IMG/VR virus record: IMGVR_UViG_3300029319_003744
Location: 1-37,774 of that record
Strand: one strand, 5' to 3'
DNA from: a virus
Length of the DNA: 37,774 nt
Position 1 is the first letter of the stretch. Each line of letters begins with the position of its first letter. Below, in pieces: positions 5,500 to 36,858 of this stretch. The notes under the pieces were generated by a model. The model did not search any database. It saw nothing but the letters and a program-made list of their open reading frames with translations, and was not told the DNA's origin. Made by a program: the position numbers and the translations under genes.

Positions 5500-6807
5500 T
5501 TACTCGTTATAATAGTTTTGCAAAGCCCTATATCCTTCTCTTGTATTTAAAGCTTCTGCAGATTCAAATCCCAGTTCTCTAGCAAGAACATCTAAAAATT
5601 CAAATCTAGGAGCTGTTTGAGCAAATATTCCTCTTTGTGCTGCTCTTGGATTAGGTACAAAATCTTCTTTAATTTTAATTAATCTTCTTAAAATAGATGG
5701 AGTTATTTCTTTACCTACTAATCCTTGAGGTACTCCTGCAACTGAAGGTGCTGTAACTTTTATAGTGGTCTGTCTGTTTTGAGGTATTATAATATCAGAT
5801 AAACTTTGCACTGGTTCTGCAACAGTAGATACGCTAGGTATCTGTTCTTTTATTGCTGAGTCTATTTCATCTAGCTCTTGAGTTGTCATATTAGCTAAAT
5901 CTTCTGCTGTAAAATCTTCTCCACGTGAAATTTTTTGTCTAACCAATGATTGCATATTTGACCTAACAGTAGGGCTATATGGAGACTTTCTAGATTTTAT
6001 TCCCTCTATCAAAGCATCTCTTTGAATAGTCAATGCTTGTATATTTTGATTTACTAAATCACTAGCCTCTGTGTTGTTAGCTGCTAAATCTGTCTGTTTA
6101 GCATCATTTAATTCTTTATCAAGATTAATTAGTCTTTTATTTATTTCTTGCAAGTTAACTAAATCTAGTTCATCGTCTTGACTTATATCTTGCATTGCTT
6201 GAGATGTTATTCTATTATAAACTCTTTGATAAGATGCTTCATCACTTTGATCAGAGCTTCTTAATAAAATATTATATGCGTTTTCGTTTATAAGACCAGA
6301 ATCAAAAAGAGTTTTTATTTCTGACTGTCTAAACCCTGCAGCAGTCTCTGCTTTATTAATAATCGCATCTAAAGCATCTACTGAAATTGGATCTTTTACT
6401 CTTGTTTTAAACTGATTAGCCAATCTTTTTTTATCAGTAAAACTATCTGCTTCATCAACAAGATTAATAAGTCTACTATCCAACTCTCTAGTTTCTTGCT
6501 TTACTCTTTCTCTGTTTTGAAGAACCATTTGCTCTTCAAAATCTAGTCTATTTTGTCTATCTAATCTTCTTTGATATCTTTGTTGATCTTCTTGTTGAGC
6601 AAGCTGTCTGTTTTGAAAATTTAAATTATCTTGTCTAGTTTGTTCAAAGTTTGCTTGATTTCTTTCTATTTCATCCAATCTATCAAATCTAGCTTGTTCT
6701 ATTTGTTGCAATCTATCTTGTCTAGCAATTTCATTTTGCAATAAACTAGGAATTGTTTCGTTTAATAATTTATTTAATGGTGATTCAAATGTAAATCCAT
6801 TAGCCAT
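5500..6807 (-). CDS. Q/R-rich coiled-coil internal virion protein
   Basis: 435 residues. Residues about 20-115 are an extreme coiled coil rich in Gln, Arg, Asn and Glu (NEIARQDRLQQIEQARFDRL and onward), followed by helical segments and a C-terminal globular region with VPQGLVGKEITPSILRRLIK. ATG at 6807 has an AGGAGATAAAT ribosome-binding site. It lies between two other Gln-rich proteins and the giant ejection-type protein, an arrangement like the internal core proteins of T7-like phages (gp14-gp16). No enzymatic motif. Assignment as an internal virion protein is inference from composition and order. Confidence 0.6.
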   Translation of the reverse strand: MANGFTFESPLNKLLNETIPSLLQNEIARQDRLQQIEQARFDRLDEIERNQANFEQTRQDNLNFQNRQLAQQEDQQRYQRRLDRQNRLDFEEQMVLQNRERVKQETRELDSRLINLVDEADSFTDKKRLANQFKTRVKDPISVDALDAIINKAETAAGFRQSEIKTLFDSGLINENAYNILLRSSDQSDEASYQRVYNRITSQAMQDISQDDELDLVNLQEINKRLINLDKELNDAKQTDLAANNTEASDLVNQNIQALTIQRDALIEGIKSRKSPYSPTVRSNMQSLVRQKISRGEDFTAEDLANMTTQELDEIDSAIKEQIPSVSTVAEPVQSLSDIIIPQNRQTTIKVTAPSVAGVPQGLVGKEITPSILRRLIKIKEDFVPNPRAAQRGIFAQTAPRFEFLDVLARELGFESAEALNTREGYRALQNYYNE

Positions 6808-6816
6808 ATTTATCTC

Positions 6817-7461
6817 CTAATAAATACTCATTGAGTTTGTATTTAAATTTAATTCTTCTTCTTTCATAGGATCTGTTCCACCAGCCATGCCTGCTGCTCC
6901 AACACCAAAAGCTCCTTGTTGTGGCATTGGGGTAGTTCTAGAACCACCAGTTGGGTCTAATTGTTGTATTCTTCTAGCTTGAGCAAAAACTCCAGTTAAG
7001 TAATTTTGTAATAAGCCAGTTAAACCAGCTCTTTCTCGACCAGCTTGTTGCTGTATGCCAAACATACCTTGATCTCTTCTTTGCATTATATCAGATAAAC
7101 TTTGATTAGCTCTTTCTCTGCTTTGCTCTATTTGTCTTTGAGTAACTCCTGAACCAGCAAAACCAGCCTGACCAGCTGCCTGACCTATTTGTCTTGTTGC
7201 TTGTCCTAAACTTTGACCAAGCCCTTGAAATCCAGATTGAAACTGAGATTGTAAAAATCCTTCTCTTGTTGCTTGTCTGCTTTGAATTTCTTTTGCAGCA
7301 TCTACAAGTCTTTGTTGATTAAAAGGCTGAAAAAACTGTCCAAACTGTTGAGCTTGATTTCCAGTAAATCCTAAAGATGCAGCTATCTGAGTTGGGTCTT
7401 GTTGAAATAATGCAGCTTGGTCTTGCAAGCCAGCTTGTTCTAATAATTCTTGAAATGTCAT
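6817..7461 (-). CDS. Gln-rich helical virion protein
   Basis: 214 residues, about one residue in five Gln in the N-terminal half (QAALFQQDPTQIAASLGF, FLQSQFQSGFQGLGQSLGQA). The region 85-130 is Gly/Ala/Gln-rich and could form flexible helices (ATRQIGQAAGQAGFAGSGVT). C-terminus is Met/Gly-rich and low in complexity. Good ribosome-binding site (AAAGGTAATATT) before ATG. Sits in the internal-virion block with the same orientation and short spacing. Composition resembles T7 gp14-type inner core proteins, but no sequence motif confirms it. Confidence 0.55.
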   Translation of the reverse strand: MTFQELLEQAGLQDQAALFQQDPTQIAASLGFTGNQAQQFGQFFQPFNQQRLVDAAKEIQSRQATREGFLQSQFQSGFQGLGQSLGQATRQIGQAAGQAGFAGSGVTQRQIEQSRERANQSLSDIMQRRDQGMFGIQQQAGRERAGLTGLLQNYLTGVFAQARRIQQLDPTGGSRTTPMPQQGAFGVGAAGMAGGTDPMKEEELNLNTNSMSIY

Positions 7462-7478
7462 AATATTACCTTTTTAAT

Positions 7479-8246
7479 CTAACCAAATGGATTGTAACCA
7501 GAGCTACTACCCATCATAAAACTACCTCTTCTAGAACTTAAAGGATTGATGCTAGGAAACCTATCTTGTAACTCTAATAACTGCATCCCCCTCTGATAAG
7601 AACTTGGTGTTACGCTTTGTATTGGAAGCCTCATTCTGTCTCTTATTGGTTCAAGTAAATCTACTGTTTTAGGTGGATTTAAAGCAGTAGCAGAATCTGC
7701 TAGTTGAGTAGTAGGATTAAACATACCTTGTAAAAGACCACCTGCACTATATCCAGTAATAGCATCTCCAAAAGCACTAGTTAATTGTTTTTGTTTAAAA
7801 TTTTGCTCTGCTTCATTTAAAAATCTATTTATATCTTGAACTGCTCCAGAAACACTTTCTCTTGCTCCTTGAAAAAACATTCCTCCACCCAATCTAGATC
7901 TAACATCATCTAAGGATAAATCACCAGATACTTTTTGACCAGCAAAACTTCCTAGCCCAGCACCTAAAGCAGTACCAGCTCTTATTGACAACCCACCAGT
8001 AAGAGGAGCTAATGCTGCACCAGCTAATCCACCAAGAATCCCTCCAATTAATCTACCCCTTCCTCTTTTTCTTTCTTGTTCTGCAGCTTCATACTCTCTA
8101 TCTTCTTGCTGGTCTTTTATATCTCGTCTAGCAGCAAGTATATCTTGTCTTTCATCTGCAGCAACACCAGTTAAGTTAGTAAAAGCTTCAGAAAGCCCAA
8201 CAGATTGACCAGCTCTTATACCAGCTAATATTTCTTCTAAAGTCAT
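7479..8246 (-). CDS. Virion protein with Gly-rich membrane-active segment
   Basis: 255 residues. After a charged helical stretch (residues 30-62, DERQDILAARRDIKDQQEDR), a Gly/Ala-rich hydrophobic segment follows (LIGGILGGLAGAALAPLTGG, about residues 66-86, continuing to AGTALGAGLGSFAGQKV). Such glycine-zipper segments are frequent in phage proteins that enter the host envelope during DNA delivery. The rest is helical with no motif. It is upstream of the two Gln-rich proteins and downstream of the nozzle gene, consistent with an ejection or core role. Confidence 0.55.
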   Translation of the reverse strand: MTLEEILAGIRAGQSVGLSEAFTNLTGVAADERQDILAARRDIKDQQEDREYEAAEQERKRGRGRLIGGILGGLAGAALAPLTGGLSIRAGTALGAGLGSFAGQKVSGDLSLDDVRSRLGGGMFFQGARESVSGAVQDINRFLNEAEQNFKQKQLTSAFGDAITGYSAGGLLQGMFNPTTQLADSATALNPPKTVDLLEPIRDRMRLPIQSVTPSSYQRGMQLLELQDRFPSINPLSSRRGSFMMGSSSGYNPFG

Positions 8247-8247
8247 T

Positions 8248-8433
8248 TTAACTCCTTATAAATTCTAAATAGTGCCAAGCACCAAGTTCTTTTCTATAAA
8301 GTCTAAGTTTACCATCAGGTGTCTTGACTATTCTTTCTTCGCCATCATTGCCAGAGTTACTAGCTGGATAGCCTTTTTGTAGTTTTGTTTTAACTCCTTT
8401 AGAGTTATATAAAAATCTTTTTTCTCTGTCCAC
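8248..8433 (-). CDS. Small unknown protein next to nozzle gene
   Basis: 61 residues beginning with GTG at 8433, which shares one base with the TAG stop of the nozzle gene; an AAGG ribosome-binding site lies 7 bases upstream. The sequence (MDREKRFLYNSKGVKTKLQK, then DGEERIVKTPDGKLRLYRKE) looks like a compact beta-rich domain with a KTPDGKLRLYRK hairpin. No family recognised. The tight coupling suggests it works with the tail nozzle or with the following virion protein. Confidence 0.6.
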   Translation of the reverse strand: MDREKRFLYNSKGVKTKLQKGYPASNSGNDGEERIVKTPDGKLRLYRKELGAWHYLEFIRS

Positions 8434-16579: not shown

Positions 16580-16887
16580 TAGTCTATGTCCGTTGTTTGT
16601 ATTTCATTATTAATTAATCTAGGTATCTTTGTATAATCTCCAGCAGAATCCATAAAGTCTAATCTATAAACTTTATTTATTTCTACACCAGCATTAGCAT
16701 CGCTAAGTGTATACCATTGTTGATCAGCTACAGTACTAAGCTTTGCATATTCTATTTTAGTATTATACTTGCCAAGTTCTACAAGAGCTTCGTTAATTAA
16801 ATTAATTACGTAAGTTTCTGGAGCATCAGGAAAAGTCTGTCTTACTCTAGATAAAATTTGTTTTACTGTTAACTTGTGTACAGCCAT
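16579..16887 (-). CDS. Head-tail adaptor-like protein
   Basis: 102 residues: helix (KLTVKQILSRVRQTFPDAPE), second helix (YVINLINEALVELGKYNTKI), then beta strands around QWYTLSDANAGVEINKVYRL and a short tail. Helix-helix-beta layout with LINEALVELG and a WYTL-x(10)-I-x-K-V-Y-RLDF stretch is that of phage adaptor proteins that sit under the portal (P22 gp4 / T7 gp11 class in position and size). One-base overlaps with both neighbours. Moderately sure of adaptor type, not of exact family. Confidence 0.6.
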   Translation of the reverse strand: MAVHKLTVKQILSRVRQTFPDAPETYVINLINEALVELGKYNTKIEYAKLSTVADQQWYTLSDANAGVEINKVYRLDFMDSAGDYTKIPRLINNEIQTTDID

Positions 16888-17156
16888 TAGTCAGAATCCT
16901 TTCCAAGCATACCTATTTGAGTCCAAGTTCTAGTTTCACTTTCCCAATTATTGCTAGCATCTAAAAAAGAACCAGATAAAATAAATGATGGACTTGTATT
17001 TAAAGCAACAGCAGTAAAGCTAGGAGATGTATTTAAAGTAACACCAGTAAAAGATGGGCTAGTATTTAAAGTAACTTGAGTAAAGCTGGGGCTTGTATTC
17101 AAAGTAACTTGAGTAAAACTAGGACTTGTATTTAATGTTACAGCAGTTAAAGCCAT
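16887..17156 (-). CDS. Five-copy 11-residue repeat protein (VTLNTSPSFTx)
   Basis: 89 residues. Residues 6-60 are five consecutive copies of an 11-residue unit VTLNTSPSFT[Q/G/A], the last degenerate (VALNTSPSFIL), followed by SGSFLDASNNWESETRTWTQ. At the DNA level this is a 33-bp tandem repeat. The unit alternates hydrophobic and polar residues with an NTSPSF turn, which could stack as a small beta solenoid. ATG at 17156 overlaps the preceding stop by one base. It lies between two connector-type genes, so a role in the head-tail region is inferred. No known family recognised. Confidence 0.7.
   Translation of the reverse strand: MALTAVTLNTSPSFTQVTLNTSPSFTQVTLNTSPSFTGVTLNTSPSFTAVALNTSPSFILSGSFLDASNNWESETRTWTQIGMLGKDSD
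16977..17141 (-). repeat. 33-bp coding tandem repeat, five copies
   Basis: The DNA encoding residues 6-60 of the repeat protein. Each 33-bp unit encodes V-T-L-N-T-S-P-S-F-T-x; copies differ mainly at synonymous positions (for example cta/ctt and gga/ggg in the complement), indicating that the amino-acid sequence is kept while DNA drifts. The first four copies encode the same ten residues exactly; the fifth is altered at three positions. Confidence 0.85.
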
Positions 17157-24272: not shown

Positions 24273-25859
24273 TTATCTTCTTTGCCCAGTAATCCAACTT
24301 CTTAATACAGATTTTTGTTTTTTCTTTCGACTATTATTATTATCTGCTTGAAAATTATCAGAGTTAAAACTTTTACTTAAAGGTGCTCTCGCATTTACAA
24401 TAGAATACCAAAGACCATCTAACAAGTCATCATTTTTTCCTTTTGGAAAGTGAAACATTTCGTCTACTAACTCTTGATGTATTTTTCTATGAAACAGTTT
24501 ACCACGATTTACAATAGGACAAAGTGTAGATTCTATTCTATCTTCTTTTTTAATACCATGAGGTGGTCTAACTCCTCTAGCTATTCCAGGTGTCATCTTT
24601 CTATCGAACCCACTCATATTGTTTACAGAGTCTTTAATAATACCCTGAGCACCTACGTGCTCTACATTAACTCTTCTAACTGGATTATATTGTTTTGCGA
24701 TCTCAAATATTTTTTGTGGCATTTCATACAAGGGTAAATGATCGTGATAATATTCTAATATGTAATAATTTTTCTCACTATCAATAGCTGTAACCATAAT
24801 AACTTGATAGTCATTGTTTGCATTTGCTTCGTATGCCAAGTCCACACCCATATAAATATTTACTGGTATAACTTTATCTTTTGATTTTATGTAAGCTTGA
24901 TTAGAGTTAGATACAAACTCATAATCGTGATGCTGTAGCTTATCAATCTTAAATTTAGCAGTAGCTAAATCTCTAGCATCATTCATATACTCTTGTGCAA
25001 ACTTATGTAACTGACCTACGTTTTCATAGTCTTTACGTATTTGATTTATCTTGTCTTTACTAAAATAAGAATCCCATAAAGGCTTACCATTTTCGAGTAC
25101 TCTATGAAATATAACATCCCAAGTATAAGATTCGTTTTTTTCTTGGGCTTCAAGATATCCATCGTATATAGCCTGCAATGCTGAATCGTAATGTACGATA
25201 GTGCCAATTAACCAAATGGATCCCTCGTTGCCCTTAGATTCTTCTAAAGATGGGTAGACAGTTGACATCAACCATTCTTTAATCTCTCTTCTTCTATCTG
25301 GTGTTTTTGTATTTAACTCAGATTCAAAGTCATCAAGAATAATATTTGTATATCTAGTACCTAACTCAGATCGACCACGCAATCTTTGACTAGTACCTTT
25401 TGCTATAACTCTATCTCCACGACTAGTTGTTATTTCTTTTTCAGTCCACTTATCTCCAACCATATCTCCAAAGTAATAGTGTAATGGACTGTTAAACTCA
25501 ATATGATTTTTAATATACTTTAAATGATCAACAGCTTGTCCTTGCTCTTCCGATACCCAAGCAGCAAATTCTTTTTTACCTTGTGGGTTAAAATATATTT
25601 TATGAAGCAATGCAGCTTTAGCCATAGTAGATTTAGAATGACCTCTAGGTAAAACAACACAAAGTTTTCTAAGGCTTCTGTCAAGCAACTTATTACCAAC
25701 CTCATAATGAAAAGGTGCTGGTGTGCTTTTCATAAAATCTTCTGGAAGAAACAGTTGACCAAAAGCTATAAGATCTTTTGATACTAAATTAAGAACTCTT
25801 TCTTTTTCAGAAAGACCGCTTGAGTTTATATTAAAATTATCTATCGTACCAGTCTCCAC
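24273..25859 (-). CDS. Terminase large subunit (TerL), T7-like
   Basis: 528 residues. Walker A PRGHSKST (71-78), Walker B NIILDDFESE (172-181, catalytic DD), and an RNase H-like nuclease with YMGVDLAYEANANNDYQ (D340), NVEHVGAQG (E400) and a C-terminal KNDDLLDGLWYS acidic motif. This is the ATPase-nuclease motor that packages DNA and cuts concatemers. The start is GTG at 25859 with only a weak ribosome-binding site and a 23-base overlap with the preceding gamma-glutamylcyclotransferase-like gene, implying coupled translation. Neighbours include small terminase and portal, as expected. Confidence 0.93.
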   Translation of the reverse strand: METGTIDNFNINSSGLSEKERVLNLVSKDLIAFGQLFLPEDFMKSTPAPFHYEVGNKLLDRSLRKLCVVLPRGHSKSTMAKAALLHKIYFNPQGKKEFAAWVSEEQGQAVDHLKYIKNHIEFNSPLHYYFGDMVGDKWTEKEITTSRGDRVIAKGTSQRLRGRSELGTRYTNIILDDFESELNTKTPDRRREIKEWLMSTVYPSLEESKGNEGSIWLIGTIVHYDSALQAIYDGYLEAQEKNESYTWDVIFHRVLENGKPLWDSYFSKDKINQIRKDYENVGQLHKFAQEYMNDARDLATAKFKIDKLQHHDYEFVSNSNQAYIKSKDKVIPVNIYMGVDLAYEANANNDYQVIMVTAIDSEKNYYILEYYHDHLPLYEMPQKIFEIAKQYNPVRRVNVEHVGAQGIIKDSVNNMSGFDRKMTPGIARGVRPPHGIKKEDRIESTLCPIVNRGKLFHRKIHQELVDEMFHFPKGKNDDLLDGLWYSIVNARAPLSKSFNSDNFQADNNNSRKKKQKSVLRSWITGQRR

Positions 25860-26199
25860 TTTCTATTACCCTAAATGAATTACTACGCTGCAACATCTCA
25901 TCTCCAGCAACATATATCCAAACATTTTCTGTAGAACCATTATCCATTTCTACATCTGTTTTAACTCTTCTGTATAAACCAGAACTAATACCTTCATACA
26001 TATCATATCTCATTAGCTCTTCAAATGTAACATCATGTACTTCAACAACTGTTCCTTTTCCTTTTTCGTTTTGTATTACAGCTGGAAAGTTTTTATGTCC
26101 TGGATATACAAGAGAGGACTTTTTTACCCTGCCAGTATTTTTAGAACCTCTTCTAAGTGTTCCATATACAGCAAGCTTTATATCTTTTTTATTACTCAT
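25837..26199 (-). CDS. Gamma-glutamylcyclotransferase-like (GGCT/AIG2 fold) protein
   Basis: 120 residues, the usual size for this fold. The substrate-binding loop YGTLRRG is at residues 12-18, a conserved acidic YDMYEGI (Glu73 as putative catalytic base) follows in the middle, then GLYRRVKTDVEM and WIYVAGDE. Enzymes of this fold release 5-oxoproline from gamma-glutamyl amides or peptides, or bind them. It is placed in the terminase cluster, overlapping large terminase by 23 bases. Interesting because enzymes of this family belong with glutamine amidotransferase and amidoligase chemistry, both encoded on the right arm. Confidence 0.85.
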   Translation of the reverse strand: MSNKKDIKLAVYGTLRRGSKNTGRVKKSSLVYPGHKNFPAVIQNEKGKGTVVEVHDVTFEELMRYDMYEGISSGLYRRVKTDVEMDNGSTENVWIYVAGDEMLQRSNSFRVIESGDWYDR

Positions 26200-28782: not shown

Positions 28783-28932
28783 ATGACCTATAAAAAAATT
28801 TTACCAAAAAATTTACAGAAATGGGTTTATAATATATCAGCACCCTATAAAATAAAAACTAAAGAAAGGTTAGAAAAAAACCAAAATGAAAAAATTACTC
28901 TCTGTGTTGTTACTGTTGATTGGTTGCAGTAA
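28783..28932 (+). CDS. Possible 49-residue leader gene overlapping lipoprotein
   Basis: ATG at 28783 to TAA at 28930-28932: MTYKKILPKNLQKWVYNISA then PYKIKTKERLEKNQNEKITL and a short hydrophobic end. It overlaps the first 47 bases of the lipoprotein gene in another frame. The ribosome-binding site is poor, and the last 15 residues are the signal-peptide DNA read out of frame. The front 35 residues look protein-like. Kept with low confidence. Confidence 0.3.
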   Translation: MTYKKILPKNLQKWVYNISAPYKIKTKERLEKNQNEKITLCVVTVDWLQ

Positions 28933-29212
28933 CCCTCCAAAAACTAAATTTTATAATTATAAAGACCTAAATGGCAAACAACATATCTTTACTACAGATA
29001 TATATAAATTAAAAGAAACAGATTATCATTATTGTTATGAGCATGAGACACTACATAAGTTAGAAGTAAAGGGATATGCACAAACTACTATGATGGTAGA
29101 CTCTACTGGATCAAAACATTTTTACGAGCACATGCTGGATAACTCTAATAACTGGTGTTATGTCCATAATCGATATGAATATGTAGAAGCCTTAAAAACA
29201 CTTCAAGAATAA
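28886..29212 (+). CDS. Early predicted lipoprotein
   Basis: 108 residues. Signal peptide MKKLLSVLLLLIGC ends in a canonical lipobox (LIGC, Cys14). The mature part is polar and beta-rich (TKFYNYKDLNGKQHIFTTDI) with two His/Cys clusters (YHYCYEHETLHKLE and HFYEHMLDNSNNWCYVHNRY), suggesting a disulfide or metal site. ATG at 28886 has an AAAGGTTAG-type site. It is the first clear gene on the rightward transcript. Lipoproteins made early by phages often block superinfection or alter the envelope; that role here is inference. Confidence 0.7.
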   Translation: MKKLLSVLLLLIGCSNPPKTKFYNYKDLNGKQHIFTTDIYKLKETDYHYCYEHETLHKLEVKGYAQTTMMVDSTGSKHFYEHMLDNSNNWCYVHNRYEYVEALKTLQE

Positions 29213-31645: not shown

Positions 31646-32818
31646 ATGTGTGGTATATTTGGTTATGCAAAGCAGAGTAATGCACAGACAGACCAACAGA
31701 TGGAGACCATAAACGTAGTTCTAAAGAATCTAGCTAGAGAATCAGAAGTCAGAGGTACAGATTCTACTGGTATAGCAGTTATTAACGAGAATAAGAATCC
31801 TCAGGTATTCAAGTCTCTAAAGAAAGCTAGTAATCTAGTTAAGAACAGACACTATGGAAAGATTCAAGAGCATATTGACAAAGAGACAGCGATAGTTCTA
31901 GGTCATACTAGATACGCTACTCATGGTACAGTATCTCTAAAGAATGCTCATCCATTTAGTTTTAACTCTATCATTGGTACTCACAATGGTGTAATATACA
32001 ACCATGAGGATGTCTCAGCATCTCTTAAGAGAGTGTATGAGGTAGACTCACAAGCTGTGTTTGCTCTATTTGACCAGAATAGTAACTTACAAGAATGTCT
32101 AGATAAAATGTATGGAGACTACGCATTAGCATGGAATAAAGATAACAAGAACACCTTGTATCTATTGAGAGAAAAAGGTAGACCATGCCACTACGTATAC
32201 TGGAGTGAAGCTAGAGTTATGTTCTACGCATCTACTAAAGAGATACTAGAACAAGCTATACAGAAAAGCACTATGAGTAAACGTATAGACAAGCATACGA
32301 TTGAAGTATATAATCACTTGCTAGATCTATATACGTCTGAGATACATACACTAGATGTGGATAAGTTATACACATTTGATACACATAAGTTTACAGACGA
32401 GTTAGTATACGAGACTAAAGACTATATCACAAACTCTATATCATATAACTACGTAAATAGTAGAAGTGCCTGGAATTATGGTGGCTATGGTAGCTATGGA
32501 TATAACACTTGCGATGTAGATGATTATATGCTAGACGAGATTAGTTGTGATGGATGCAATGAGAAGACTCAGTACATGGATATAATCTACAACGAAGATA
32601 CTAAAGAGTATGTATGCTATGATTGTGAATACAAAGAGAATCCAAAACTAAACGTAGACGAAGCTTATATGGAAGGTATAGAGTGTGGCGACTGCAAGTC
32701 TTACGATGACAACATATATAAAGTCAAAGACAATTATATATGTGAAGATTGTTATGTCAAGGGAGACTTATTTAGAGAGGAGGGTTATGAAGATGGACAG
32801 CAAGCTTTTCTCTCATAA
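31646..32818 (+). CDS. Class II glutamine amidotransferase fused to Zn-binding modules
   Basis: 390 residues. N-terminal nucleophile domain: MCGIFGY with catalytic Cys2, GTDSTGIA (37-44), GHTRYATHGT (86-95, Arg and His of the glutamine pocket), THNGVIYN (112-119; N114, G115) and D134 in EVDSQAVF, all key residues of GlmS/PurF-type domains. It should release ammonia from glutamine or transfer a gamma-glutamyl group. No synthase domain follows. Instead, residues 301-369 hold two CxxC pairs twice (C301/C304/C324/C327 and C347/C350/C366/C369), treble-clef or LIM-like. The downstream amidoligase shares this type of module, so they probably work together. Strong AAGGAAGGAG site. Confidence 0.9.
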   Translation: MCGIFGYAKQSNAQTDQQMETINVVLKNLARESEVRGTDSTGIAVINENKNPQVFKSLKKASNLVKNRHYGKIQEHIDKETAIVLGHTRYATHGTVSLKNAHPFSFNSIIGTHNGVIYNHEDVSASLKRVYEVDSQAVFALFDQNSNLQECLDKMYGDYALAWNKDNKNTLYLLREKGRPCHYVYWSEARVMFYASTKEILEQAIQKSTMSKRIDKHTIEVYNHLLDLYTSEIHTLDVDKLYTFDTHKFTDELVYETKDYITNSISYNYVNSRSAWNYGGYGSYGYNTCDVDDYMLDEISCDGCNEKTQYMDIIYNEDTKEYVCYDCEYKENPKLNVDEAYMEGIECGDCKSYDDNIYKVKDNYICEDCYVKGDLFREEGYEDGQQAFLS

Positions 32819-33104
32819 GAAGGTAGCTATGATAGTTGGTATAGAAGATAGTATTAGATACCGTACTAAACTACAAGCTATGAAGAAGCTATACAAGAAA
32901 GCTAAGAACAATCCATTTACAGATACAGAATCGTTTGATAGTTACATGAAGTTCATAGCTAACAAGATCAGAGAAGGTACAAGCGTAGAAGTTCAATCAG
33001 TAGAGCCAGAGGAGATATTCGATACATTGAAGAAGATAGGTTGGCTTAGAGAGAGAAGCTACGCTAGTTTCTATATGATTACTACTAACAAAGCAATAGC
33101 TTAG
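32793..33104 (+). CDS. 103-residue protein between amidotransferase and amidoligase
   Basis: Start taken at ATG 32793 (AGGAGG nine bases upstream; ATG at 32787 is the alternative); the longer frame from 32685 reads the amidotransferase tail in another frame. Sequence MDSKLFSHKKVAMIVGIEDS, helical middle (LQAMKKLYKKAKNNPFTDTE) and ends with KIGWLRERSYASFYMITTNK. Overlaps the amidotransferase by 26 bases, suggesting coupled synthesis. No recognised family; a partner protein of the amidotransferase/amidoligase pair is possible by position. Confidence 0.6.
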   Translation: MDSKLFSHKKVAMIVGIEDSIRYRTKLQAMKKLYKKAKNNPFTDTESFDSYMKFIANKIREGTSVEVQSVEPEEIFDTLKKIGWLRERSYASFYMITTNKAIA

Positions 33105-33113
33105 GAGGTATGT

Positions 33114-34445
33114 ATGCCAGGTAGAATAAATACTAGAAGGATAGAAACCTTTGAATGTGATTGCTGTAGCGATACATATACAAAGACTAGTATCGAAGCT
33201 AGAAAGCAAGAGAGAGAAGGTACCTTAGAGCATTCTATAAGACAAGCAATGGGCGTTGATGTATACGACCAACCACGTTGGTCTATAATATGTAATGTCT
33301 GTTACAATGATGTTATAGAAACATGCTATGATTGCTCTTCTCAGTTAGAGAGAGGTGGTACAAATACTTTCTACTCTGAAGATGGAGATTCATTCTGTGA
33401 AGATTGTTACTATGAACATTATGGACATTGCGATGATTGTGGAGAAGAATGTCATAGAGACTATATGATATACAGAGAAAGCAGAGAAGAGACATACTGT
33501 GAGAACTGCGATCCTGGAGATGGAGATGATGTAGACCTATGGAGTTTCAATAGAACAAATAAGATAGAGTCTACAATACCAGAGGCAGAATCACGTAGGT
33601 TTGTAGGTATTGAGATAGAGTGTTTAGTTGACGATTCAGAATGGTGGAATTATCATGATGGTTATCCAGAGACATTCAGAGCTGTTAGTGATAGTTCTAT
33701 AGAAAGAGGAGGAGAAGAAAGTGCAGTAGAGTTTGTACATAGAGCACCGATACAAGGTAGAAGACTCAAGAGGTCTATAGTTTCTATGTGCGATTATCTA
33801 TCAGATAACAACTTCTTTGTTAATAGAAGCTGTGGTCTACACGTACACGTTGATGCTGCAGATATGGGTTACAGAGACCTTAAGTGGACTTTACTACTAG
33901 GTAAGTCTATTCAAGATATTATCTATAAGATGATGCCAATGTCTAGACGAGATGGTAGATGGGCTAAGAGAATACCTATGAGTAGAGAGAGTATACTTAA
34001 TATCTGTGATGACCATGACTTTGTAGACTCATGGTACTCAGCCTGGGGTGTAGAGCCTAGCTACGAGAAGTACAATCACTCTAGATATTGTGGTATGAAT
34101 ATGCACTCTAGGATTATCAATGGCTCTATTGAGTTTAGGTATCACTCTGGTACTATCAATAGAAACAAGATAATAAACTGGATTACTATATGCCAAGCGA
34201 TAGTAGATACTGGTAGACTTCTAGGTATGTATGGAGAGACTAAACATATTACTAATATTCCACAAGAGTATCAGTATATAAAGATATTAGCTAACCAGAT
34301 CTCTGATAGAAACCTAACCTATGGAGAGTTTTGTAAGTATCTTAGATTACCTCTTGAGGTAAAGCAATACGCTAGAAAGAGACTAACTAAGTTCTACAGC
34401 TCTGACTACAGAGAAGACTACGAGACTATGCATTTCTACGTATAA
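33114..34445 (+). CDS. Amidoligase (glutamine-synthetase-like COOH-NH2 ligase) with N-terminal Zn modules
   Basis: 443 residues. Residues 1-140 are Zn-binding: pairs at C15/C18, C60/C63, C71/C74, C95/C98, C106/C109, C129/C132 (treble-clef or LIM-like). Residues 162-375 match Amidoligase_2 motifs: VGIEIEC (164-170), DSS (193-195), VEF (205-207), SCGLHVHVD (239-247), CGMNMHS (326-332) and GSIEFRYHSGT (337-347). Families with this fold are predicted to use ATP to join carboxyl and amine groups, forming peptide or amide bonds. AGGAGG upstream of ATG. Together with the class II amidotransferase it suggests ammonia- or peptide-linked modification of an unknown target. Confidence 0.88.
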   Translation: MPGRINTRRIETFECDCCSDTYTKTSIEARKQEREGTLEHSIRQAMGVDVYDQPRWSIICNVCYNDVIETCYDCSSQLERGGTNTFYSEDGDSFCEDCYYEHYGHCDDCGEECHRDYMIYRESREETYCENCDPGDGDDVDLWSFNRTNKIESTIPEAESRRFVGIEIECLVDDSEWWNYHDGYPETFRAVSDSSIERGGEESAVEFVHRAPIQGRRLKRSIVSMCDYLSDNNFFVNRSCGLHVHVDAADMGYRDLKWTLLLGKSIQDIIYKMMPMSRRDGRWAKRIPMSRESILNICDDHDFVDSWYSAWGVEPSYEKYNHSRYCGMNMHSRIINGSIEFRYHSGTINRNKIINWITICQAIVDTGRLLGMYGETKHITNIPQEYQYIKILANQISDRNLTYGEFCKYLRLPLEVKQYARKRLTKFYSSDYREDYETMHFYV

Positions 34446-34814: not shown

Positions 34815-35705
34815 ATGCCAGCTATAGGATTTAAATATCCAGAGGGAGATACTATAACATTTGAAGATGCTCTAGAGAATAATAAGCTAGACATTAATAG
34901 AATGGGTGTGTATCCTACAGCTCTAAGAGAGATGGCTAAACAGAGAGATCCAGATAGAAAACCATCTGTTACAGAGCTACTCAATGGCACTTGCCAATCC
35001 TACTTACAGAGAACTACAGAATATTATCTAGACCCACAAGACCTAGCATTTTCTCTAGCAGGTACTCTACATCATAATAAGTTAGAGAGTAACGCTGATG
35101 AGACAGATGCTGAGATAAATGTAGAGGGATTAGATATAACTGGTATTGTAGATTTGTATGACAGTCAGACAAAGTCTTTAATAGATTATAAGAATACTGG
35201 CTCTTACAAAGCTGCTCAAGTACTAGGTATGGAGTTCTTCTTAGAAGATGACCCTAGTGGTGCTGTTTATCTAAGAAGTGGTAAGTGGGGAAAGAAAGGC
35301 TCTCCAAAGAAAGTAAAGAGATTCTGGTCTAATCCAGAGAAAGCAGATTTTGGAGACTGGTCTTGGCAGATTAACATGTATAGATATATGTTAGAGTCTA
35401 CTGGAAAGCAAGTAGATAGCATGTATGTACAGATGACAGTTAGAGATGGTGGCATACTTGCAGCGAGAGACAGAGGTATAGACAGAAATATATATCTAGT
35501 TGAAGTGCCATACATACACAACGATCACTTACTAGAGTACTATAGAGACAAAAGAGATAGACTATTAGATGCTTTAGAGAGTAAGGTAACTCCAGAGAAG
35601 TGTAATGAAAGAGAAACGTGGGATGGTATGAAGTGTAAGAAGTATTGTGAAGTTAGACATCATTGTCCACACGTAGACAATCGAGACATACTAGAAGGGA
35701 AATAA
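34815..35705 (+). CDS. Cas4-like PD-(D/E)XK exonuclease with Fe-S cluster motif
   Basis: 296 residues. Restriction-nuclease-fold motifs: H86 in AGTLHHNKLE, D113 in ITGIVDLYDS, D124-x-K126 in LIDYKNTGS, and Q185 in WSWQINMYRYML, as in RecB/Cas4 enzymes. Four cysteines suited for a 4Fe-4S cluster: C60 (GTCQSYLQ) with C274, C278, C284 (KCKKYCEVRHHCPH); C263 is a fifth candidate. Such enzymes resect DNA ends for recombination. Directly followed by the Sak-type annealing protein and an SSB-like protein, making a recombination and repair set. Confidence 0.85.
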   Translation: MPAIGFKYPEGDTITFEDALENNKLDINRMGVYPTALREMAKQRDPDRKPSVTELLNGTCQSYLQRTTEYYLDPQDLAFSLAGTLHHNKLESNADETDAEINVEGLDITGIVDLYDSQTKSLIDYKNTGSYKAAQVLGMEFFLEDDPSGAVYLRSGKWGKKGSPKKVKRFWSNPEKADFGDWSWQINMYRYMLESTGKQVDSMYVQMTVRDGGILAARDRGIDRNIYLVEVPYIHNDHLLEYYRDKRDRLLDALESKVTPEKCNERETWDGMKCKKYCEVRHHCPHVDNRDILEGK

Positions 35706-35706
35706 T

Positions 35707-36276
35707 ATGAAAAGCAACATATTTGAAACATTAGATAAGATAGATGTCTCTACTCATACAGAGAAGAAAGGACAGTTCAACTATCTAAGTTGGGCATGGG
35801 CAGTAAGAGAGCTACTTAGAGTGGCTCCAGAGGCTACCTGGACTGTACATGAGTGGGGATTAGAGGGTAATAAACAACCCTATATGCAGACAGAAGCAGG
35901 GTGCTTTGTAAAAGTATCTGTCTCTGTAAACAATATTGTTAGAGAACAAGTTCATCCAGTTCTTGACAATAGAAACCAACCTATTAAAAAGCCAAACGCT
36001 TTCCAAGTAAATACATCTATACAAAGATGTCTAGCAAAAGCAATAGCTCTACATGGTTTAGGATTGTATATATTTGCTGGAGAAGATTTACCAGATACTA
36101 GGCTAGAGGATGATAGTGTAAGAACACTAACTGATCTAGCAGAGAAAACTGGAGATGCAGATATAATGCAGAAGATAGATGAGAGTATAGCTAGTGGTAA
36201 GATTAACAAAACTAATATAGCAGCTTATGAAGCTAGGCTACATAAATTAATAGACAACCCAAAGGAAGAAGGTTAA
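35707..36276 (+). CDS. Single-strand annealing protein, Sak (DUF1071) family
   Basis: 189 residues. Characteristic N-terminus KGQFNYLSWAWAVRELLRVA (YLSWAWA at about 26-32), strands with PYMQTEAGCFVKVSVSV, PVLDNRNQPI, and the family-defining VNTSIQRCLAKAIALHGLGL followed by YIFAGEDLPD. C-terminal 60 residues are a flexible charged tail. Annealing proteins of this family promote DNA recombination by pairing complementary strands. Gene begins one base after the nuclease stop region with GAAGGGAAATAAT before ATG. Confidence 0.88.
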   Translation: MKSNIFETLDKIDVSTHTEKKGQFNYLSWAWAVRELLRVAPEATWTVHEWGLEGNKQPYMQTEAGCFVKVSVSVNNIVREQVHPVLDNRNQPIKKPNAFQVNTSIQRCLAKAIALHGLGLYIFAGEDLPDTRLEDDSVRTLTDLAEKTGDADIMQKIDESIASGKINKTNIAAYEARLHKLIDNPKEEG

Positions 36277-36858
36277 ATGAGTAACGTAGATACAATACTA
36301 GATAAGAGTACATCTGAAGCATACTACGATCCATCTATGGATTTTTCTGGTCTAATGCCAGAAGGAATGTATAAGGCGTATGCTACGGATTTAGTAATTA
36401 AAGAGAACATAGTTATTAAGAATAAATATATATCTGATATATATGAAGTTAAGTTTGAGATAGCACCAGAGAACAAAGAGAACACTTACGAAGATAATGG
36501 TAATGAGATTAGTGGTAAGACTTTCGTAGGTAAAGAGGTACGCTCCAAAGGTTTTTTTAGATTTAAAAAACCAGATAAGACTACTCATCCTAACTTAGAA
36601 GAAAATAGTGGATCAAATAAATCTTATATGGAATTAATACAATCTTTTGGAGTGGTATCAGAGCCAGATAATGAGGGTAGATACTTCTTACCTAATGTAG
36701 ACGAGAGCGATGTCGTAGGTATGCCAGTTGAGATAGAGGTAAAGCATAACGAATGGACAAACAGTGAGGGAGAGAAAGTTAAGACTCCAAAAGCTGTAGC
36801 TATATTTAGATGGGAAGGTCAAGCTAAGAAAGATTTAACAGAAGATTTGCCTTTCTAG
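36277..36858 (+). CDS. Single-stranded DNA-binding protein-like (acidic tail DLTEDLPF)
   Basis: 193 residues, OB-fold-like strand pattern in the middle (MYKAYATDLVIKENIVIKNK, IYEVKFEIAPENKENTYE, GKTFVGKEVRSKGFFRFKKP, FLPNVDESDVVGMPVEIEVK) and a terminal DLTEDLPF, the acidic, Phe-ended tip used by SSB proteins to bind partner enzymes. Follows the annealing protein at once. Could also be classed as a DUF669-like protein; either way an ssDNA-binding role beside Sak is likely. Stop is followed by a strong hairpin. Confidence 0.75.
   Translation: MSNVDTILDKSTSEAYYDPSMDFSGLMPEGMYKAYATDLVIKENIVIKNKYISDIYEVKFEIAPENKENTYEDNGNEISGKTFVGKEVRSKGFFRFKKPDKTTHPNLEENSGSNKSYMELIQSFGVVSEPDNEGRYFLPNVDESDVVGMPVEIEVKHNEWTNSEGEKVKTPKAVAIFRWEGQAKKDLTEDLPF

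Follow-up and report, generated by a model that had tools for sequence, protein, structure and literature searches.

A reduced amidotransferase, amidoligase and cyclotransferase module with predicted zinc-ribbon regions in an uncultured phage lineage

The window, the whole stretch of 37,774 nucleotides analysed here (IMG/VR record IMGVR_UViG_3300029319_003744), carries a reduced module that belongs to the core of a phage lineage not yet cultured and includes: (i) a stand-alone class II (Ntn-type) glutamine amidotransferase (GAT), (ii) a small coupled gene, (iii) an Amidoligase_2 protein (AL) with a predicted zinc-binding head and (iv) a gamma-glutamylamine cyclotransferase (GGACT). The GAT and AL may form a coupled glutamine-dependent amide ligase that acts on peptide-like material, a reading held with about equal belief and doubt. 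The enzyme families and their partnership are already known from a prediction of Iyer et al. 2009, as represented in papers citing it. New here are the module in its reduced, zinc-headed form, its core status in this lineage, a fusion of AL to GAT in a distant relative (L043) and an AL-GAT pair in Omnitrophica.

The genes for GAT (390 aa; 31646-32818), the small protein (103 aa; 32793-33104) and AL (443 aa; 33114-34445) lie on the plus strand as neighbours that overlap or almost touch. The ATG of the small gene sits 26 bp inside the end of the GAT gene, its stop codon is 9 bp ahead of AL, and a Shine-Dalgarno-like sequence precedes each of the three. The dN/dS values against relatives are 0.19-0.26 for GAT, 0.18-0.35 for the small gene and 0.29-0.33 for AL; thus, the genes are not chance open reading frames (ORFs) and are under purifying selection. 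A preliminary description of the window had placed the trio at 31646-34445 (+) and assigned both enzyme families from their motifs. The genes are present at these coordinates, the Pfam matches of both enzymes exceed their cut-offs, and the motifs are intact in GAT (Cys2, GHTRYATHG, NGVIYN and D134) and in AL (VGIEIE, SCGLHVHVD and GSIEFRYHSGT). That description overlooked the GGACT as a third partner and the CxxC-rich, zinc-ribbon-like regions of GAT and AL. Downstream of AL (34815-36858, +) are a PD-(D/E)XK exonuclease (PF12705, 4.4e-7), a Sak annealing protein (PF06378, 1.2e-52) and a 193-aa protein with no match in the family libraries searched. Position beside the exonuclease, Sak and related genes is the sole basis for the early-infection timing proposed for the pair.

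Elsewhere in the window, an 84-aa ORF (105-359, -), whose start is signal-like and which contains the motif MVCSFCAQG, resembles a heavy-metal-associated (copper chaperone-like) domain, and an 89-aa ORF (16887-17156, -) consists mainly of ~ten-residue repeats (LNTSPSFTxVT). A 108-aa ORF (28886-29212, +) with a lipoprotein-like start, MKKLLSVLLLLIGCSN, lies near the point at which the two arms of the genome diverge.

The GAT matches PF13522 (GATase_6, E=2.7e-16, over cut-off) and PF13537 (6.7e-11), and a PDB profile match is to GlmS (1xff, 3.2e-10). Residues 1 to ~230 are catalytic and include Cys2, GHTRYATHG (86-94), HNG/NGVIYN (113-119) and D134. The features of class II enzymes are all present (the Cys after Met and the Arg, Asn-Gly and Asp of the glutamine site), and C2, H87, R89, T92, H113, N114, G115 and D134 are invariant in an alignment of 25 homologues. 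The best NCBIfam match is partial, covering the N-terminal half of GlmS far under the cut-off (77 versus 418 bits); asparagine synthase (50 versus 267) and PurF (39 versus 350) score lower. Identity with GlmS, AsnB or PurF is ruled out, as the protein stands alone, has a zinc-ribbon-like tail and is without a fused synthase domain. The tail (residues ~300-370) contains four CxxC pairs in the window and two or six in some relatives; such pairs are usually missing from the clade that does not have the small gene. Homology of this tail to the head of AL was considered and rejected. The match, from one pairwise comparison (E=0.013), spans 27 residues and consists mainly of cysteines; a common origin is not claimed because it is so short and cysteine-dominated.

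The AL matches PF12224 (Amidoligase_2, E=4.3e-19; 69.8 bits against a cut-off of 22) and is divided into a head (~15-132) with six CxxC pairs, a number found in most lineage members, and a core (~160-443) resembling glutamine synthetase (GS) and glutamate-cysteine ligase. Weak LIM-like matches suggest that the CxxC regions of GAT and AL are zinc ribbons. Among 34 homologues, E167, E169, D193, E206, C240, G241, H243, H245, R278, R324, Y325, N329, E340 and R342 are invariant; of these, E167, E169, H243, H245, E340 and R342, among others, are predicted catalytic acidic, histidine and arginine residues. The AlphaFold2 model (mean pLDDT 84.5, pTM 0.70) is best matched in Foldseek by YbdK (1r8g; E=9.5e-4, probability 1.00), a match that barely reaches significance when the full length is compared (TM 0.32). 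The top 13 matches are all GS, glutamate-cysteine ligase or glutathione synthetase structures. Following YbdK, the only match with E<0.001, are bifunctional glutathione synthetase, plant glutamate-cysteine ligase and glutamine synthetases. Because GS and glutamate-cysteine ligase structures head the fold matches, the model supports an ATP-using ligase fold for AL, consistent with the ligase role first proposed for it. A second, larger AL (~600 aa) precedes GAT in 11 clade loci (e.g., L021 2477-4354, L023 2752-4458, L025 2801-4624 and L030 2632-4434, where its CxxC pairs begin near residue 167-197) and is absent from the window.

The small protein has no family in Pfam, PHROGs, NCBIfam or PADLOC. 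Its invariant residues in a 21-sequence alignment are G16, L33, A37, N40, P41, F42, Y51, L79, K80, W84 and L85, and its gene is kept between GAT and AL in 23 of 30 relatives. A structure model of moderate confidence (pLDDT 70.7) finds no match at E<=0.001 among PDB and viral folds. Fusion of the small protein into the larger AL of relatives without the small gene is rejected, as its profile finds nothing credible elsewhere. A Pup-like tag was considered because PafA is GS-like; this identity is likewise rejected, since the C-terminus is without Glu/Gln and 7 of 30 relatives do not have the gene.

The clade set comprises 32 loci (L009-L039 and L045). GAT directly precedes AL in all 30 that reach both genes, the two exceptions (L019 and L033) being loci that start at AL; the counts are not independent because some loci are near-duplicates. 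GGACT occurs in 27 of the 32 clade records, and the remaining five are fragments. The set searched for AL and GAT was the 37 longer records. Among loci selected by terminase, all 13 that reach at least 9 kb upstream of the terminase gene contain AL sequence. The AL and GAT trees give the same main groups, the Omnitrophica pair included. In L043, AL and GAT are fused in one 921-aa frame (5539-8304) with both Pfam domains over cut-off. A hydrophobic stretch lies ahead of each domain; because the cysteine of GAT (GCGIG) comes after the second of these stretches, processing would be needed for its N-terminal exposure. In L005/L068 (G004, 80 kb) and in L027 (G020, 64 kb), GGACT, GAT and AL each occur twice, as non-identical copies ~44 kb apart, which points to either two related phage genomes in tandem or a mixed assembly.

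Most of the loci belong to a single lineage whose members share their gene order, and the genes could travel together by shared ancestry without functional coupling. This explanation is very unlikely, as unrelated phages with differing gene orders show the association again, as do Omnitrophica and a gene fusion. The comparison included 12 cultured or named phages, 11 picked because of a similar AL and one, Pseudomonas phage Ab22, because of its GAT. Among the 11 unrelated AL-bearing phages, GAT is over cut-off in seven, GGACT is found in eight and both are found in seven, while profile search detects no GAT in three (W04, W05 and W06). As a rough background, GAT matches occur in 352 of 50,697 phage records (~0.7%) by tblastn, which is less sensitive than the profile search applied to the 11. 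In a Zobellviridae phage the order is GAT, COOH-NH2 ligase, hypothetical gene, AL, ATP-grasp and GGACT, and in Arthrobacter phage Shrooms it is GGACT-AL-GAT. Adjacency, agreeing trees, fusion and recurrence in unrelated phages all support functional coupling of GAT and AL. Two elements of the preliminary description are thereby upheld: the conserved co-occurrence on which its pairing depended is found in relatives, and the tie to gamma-glutamylcyclotransferases drawn there is matched by the GGACT of the window and by the same association in unrelated phages.

The GGACT gene (120 aa; 25837-26199, -; PF06094, 1.1e-14, above cut-off) is in the opposite (packaging) arm, 5.4 kb from GAT/AL and on the other strand, and its 3' end overlaps by 23 bp the start of the gene for the terminase large subunit (TerL; 24273-25859, -), which is assigned by position and this overlap and served as the lineage marker. 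Among 80 IMG/VR loci selected by terminase similarity alone, GGACT adjoins TerL in 77 of the 77 with room for it, the other three contigs starting too close to the terminase gene. GGACT is a fixed neighbour of the terminase in this lineage. The nearest terminases of cultured phages are ~26% identical, and a search of 84,980 genomes for a terminase relative that would point to a host found none. The YGTL motif (Y12-G13-T14-L15), the catalytic Glu (E69) and Y76 are present in GGACT and invariant in six homologues; by profile match to 1vkb they correspond to the active-site residues Tyr7-Leu10, Glu82 and Tyr88 of the mouse enzyme (PMC2954230).

The terminase-side position of GGACT also speaks for a small-molecule function, in which AL would make gamma-glutamyl amines and GGACT would free them, changing polyamine or nitrogen pools or assisting DNA packaging. 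The AL fold resembles enzymes that work on free glutamate, and PuuA, of the GS family, makes gamma-glutamyl amines from polyamines. Gamma-glutamylamines are, in addition, the known substrate class of GGACT (PMC2954230). Such a function leaves the need for a GAT unexplained, however, and in Zobellviridae and LUZ24-type phages GGACT shares an early operon with AL and not with packaging genes; it is considered distinctly unlikely. Alternatively, GAT and AL might install a gamma-glutamyl (amide) mark early and GGACT, produced along with the terminase, might strip it at packaging. This staged, reversible scheme is very doubtful; if true, the constant overlap of the GGACT and terminase genes would serve a function instead of being left over from the gene order.

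The closest known relatives of the module are those of phiEco32/LUZ24-type phages, for which passages in PMC10580990 and PMC11318856 refer to the association of AL, GAT and cyclotransferase predicted by Iyer et al. 2009. These modules and that of Zobellviridae likewise lie close to replication genes and include Amidoligase_2, a class II GAT and a cyclotransferase of the GGACT type, and the window carries AL, GAT and GGACT in one genome, the combination by which the type is recognized. By contrast, the lineage is without the ATP-grasp and COOH-NH2 ligases: a profile of the phage-type ATP-grasp ligase matches none of 22 lineage records (the window and 21 relatives), and neither does one for the COOH-NH2 ligase type 2 (PF14395-like, as in phiEco32). 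The ATP-grasp profile matched four of five control phage records at E<=1e-104, and the same four matched the COOH-NH2 ligase profile; the ATP-grasp negative covers the phage-related type, other ATP-grasp kinds being outside the reach of the profile. The lineage also differs in having GGACT at the terminase gene, zinc-ribbon-like regions in both AL and GAT, an additional small gene separating the two and, in some relatives, the second, larger AL before GAT. The Arthrobacter Laroyevirus Shrooms is similar in its contiguous GGACT, AL and GAT and in having no ATP-grasp or COOH-NH2 ligase match; it differs in gene order, in the absence of the small gene and in its AL, which is shorter (338 aa) and shows only 24.5% identity along part of its sequence.

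The module could instead tag or amidate host or phage proteins (e.g., translation or transcription factors) and so redirect the host. GS-like ligases such as PafA ligate proteins, and the zinc-ribbon-like regions of GAT and AL might serve to bind proteins or nucleic acids. Modification of host proteins is predicted for the ATP-grasp R2K enzymes of phages (PMC7824862), a parallel weakened by the finding that 0 of the 22 lineage records carry a phage-type ATP-grasp peptide ligase. Overall, protein tagging is judged rather unlikely.

In three Omnitrophica genomes a zinc-headed AL (LIM-like match of 5.6e-4, under cut-off) is directly beside a class II GAT (L152 2110-13032, L154 1509-7563 and L153 392-2735). 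Here the order is AL then GAT, GGACT and the small gene are not seen within the flanks fetched, and L152 and L154 are beside type IV secretion system (T4SS)/conjugation genes: TraD/VirD4-, TrbC/VirB2- and TraC-like genes are over cut-off in L152, and a TraD-like gene also in L154. In a Clostridia MAG (L168 5848-7491), an AL gene is immediately followed by a PF06094 GGACT gene with no GAT nearby.

The occurrence of the pair beside conjugation genes also argues against DNA base hypermodification, in which an amine or amino acid would be put on a modified base, as the preliminary description had allowed. Some phages have amino-acid-modified thymines, and the pair neighbours replication genes. Yet the only functions recognised among the scanned genes of the window and of G003, a near-complete relative, are helicase, PolB exonuclease, Sak, exonuclease, terminase, head and endolysin functions, and this general family scan, outside which many small ORFs fall, found no thymidylate synthase-like protein, hydroxymethylase or pyrophosphorylase. 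Since every function recognised in the scan falls under replication, recombination, packaging, head or lysis, DNA modification is disfavoured and is regarded as exceedingly improbable.

For the coupled amide ligase, the nearest functional analogue is the murT-gatD operon, which amidates peptidoglycan glutamate (PMC3267633). MurT/GatD is similarly a two-gene, co-transcribed, glutamine-dependent and ATP-using amidation unit (PMC3267633). It combines, however, a Mur-ligase fold with a class I (CobB/CobQ-like) GAT and has no homology to the GAT-AL pair; membership in the MurT/GatD type is ruled out, as Pfam and fold matches place AL with GS-like ligases and GAT in class II. Because of the analogy, a peptide or the stem peptide of the wall is the likeliest substrate class; the host wall taken alone is judged less likely than not to be the target. 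Known anti-phage defence systems are rejected, since GAT, the small protein, AL and GGACT are all without a match among PADLOC defence models.

From these features we infer a complex in which the GAT would hydrolyse glutamine and pass on ammonia (or a gamma-glutamyl group) to the AL. ATP would activate a carboxylate in the GS-like site of AL, to which the amine would then be joined. The zinc-ribbon-like regions and the small protein probably keep the complex assembled or take part in substrate recognition, and GGACT may cyclise gamma-glutamyl groups off amines to 5-oxoproline, reversing or trimming the product. The benefit would be superinfection exclusion or wall protection. Papers citing Iyer et al. 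2009 mention a similar suggestion for the phiEco32 enzymes, that they change the cell wall and block superinfection. No experiment behind that suggestion was found in the literature, and a literature search on the function of phage amidoligase modules gave predictions only. Against a coupled ligase, class II GATs can work without a fixed partner, free ammonia or another amine could serve AL, and the location of GGACT in the packaging arm and the three of 11 AL-bearing phages without a detectable GAT count against it.

With GAT, AL and GGACT alone, the lineage shows which parts of the larger phage modules may suffice and provides a compact set of genes for reconstitution. That AL and GAT are fused in L043, and that their Omnitrophica counterparts sit beside conjugation genes, suggests a role of use to mobile elements at large. 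If the wall is the target, the module would represent a new phage route to altering the host surface.
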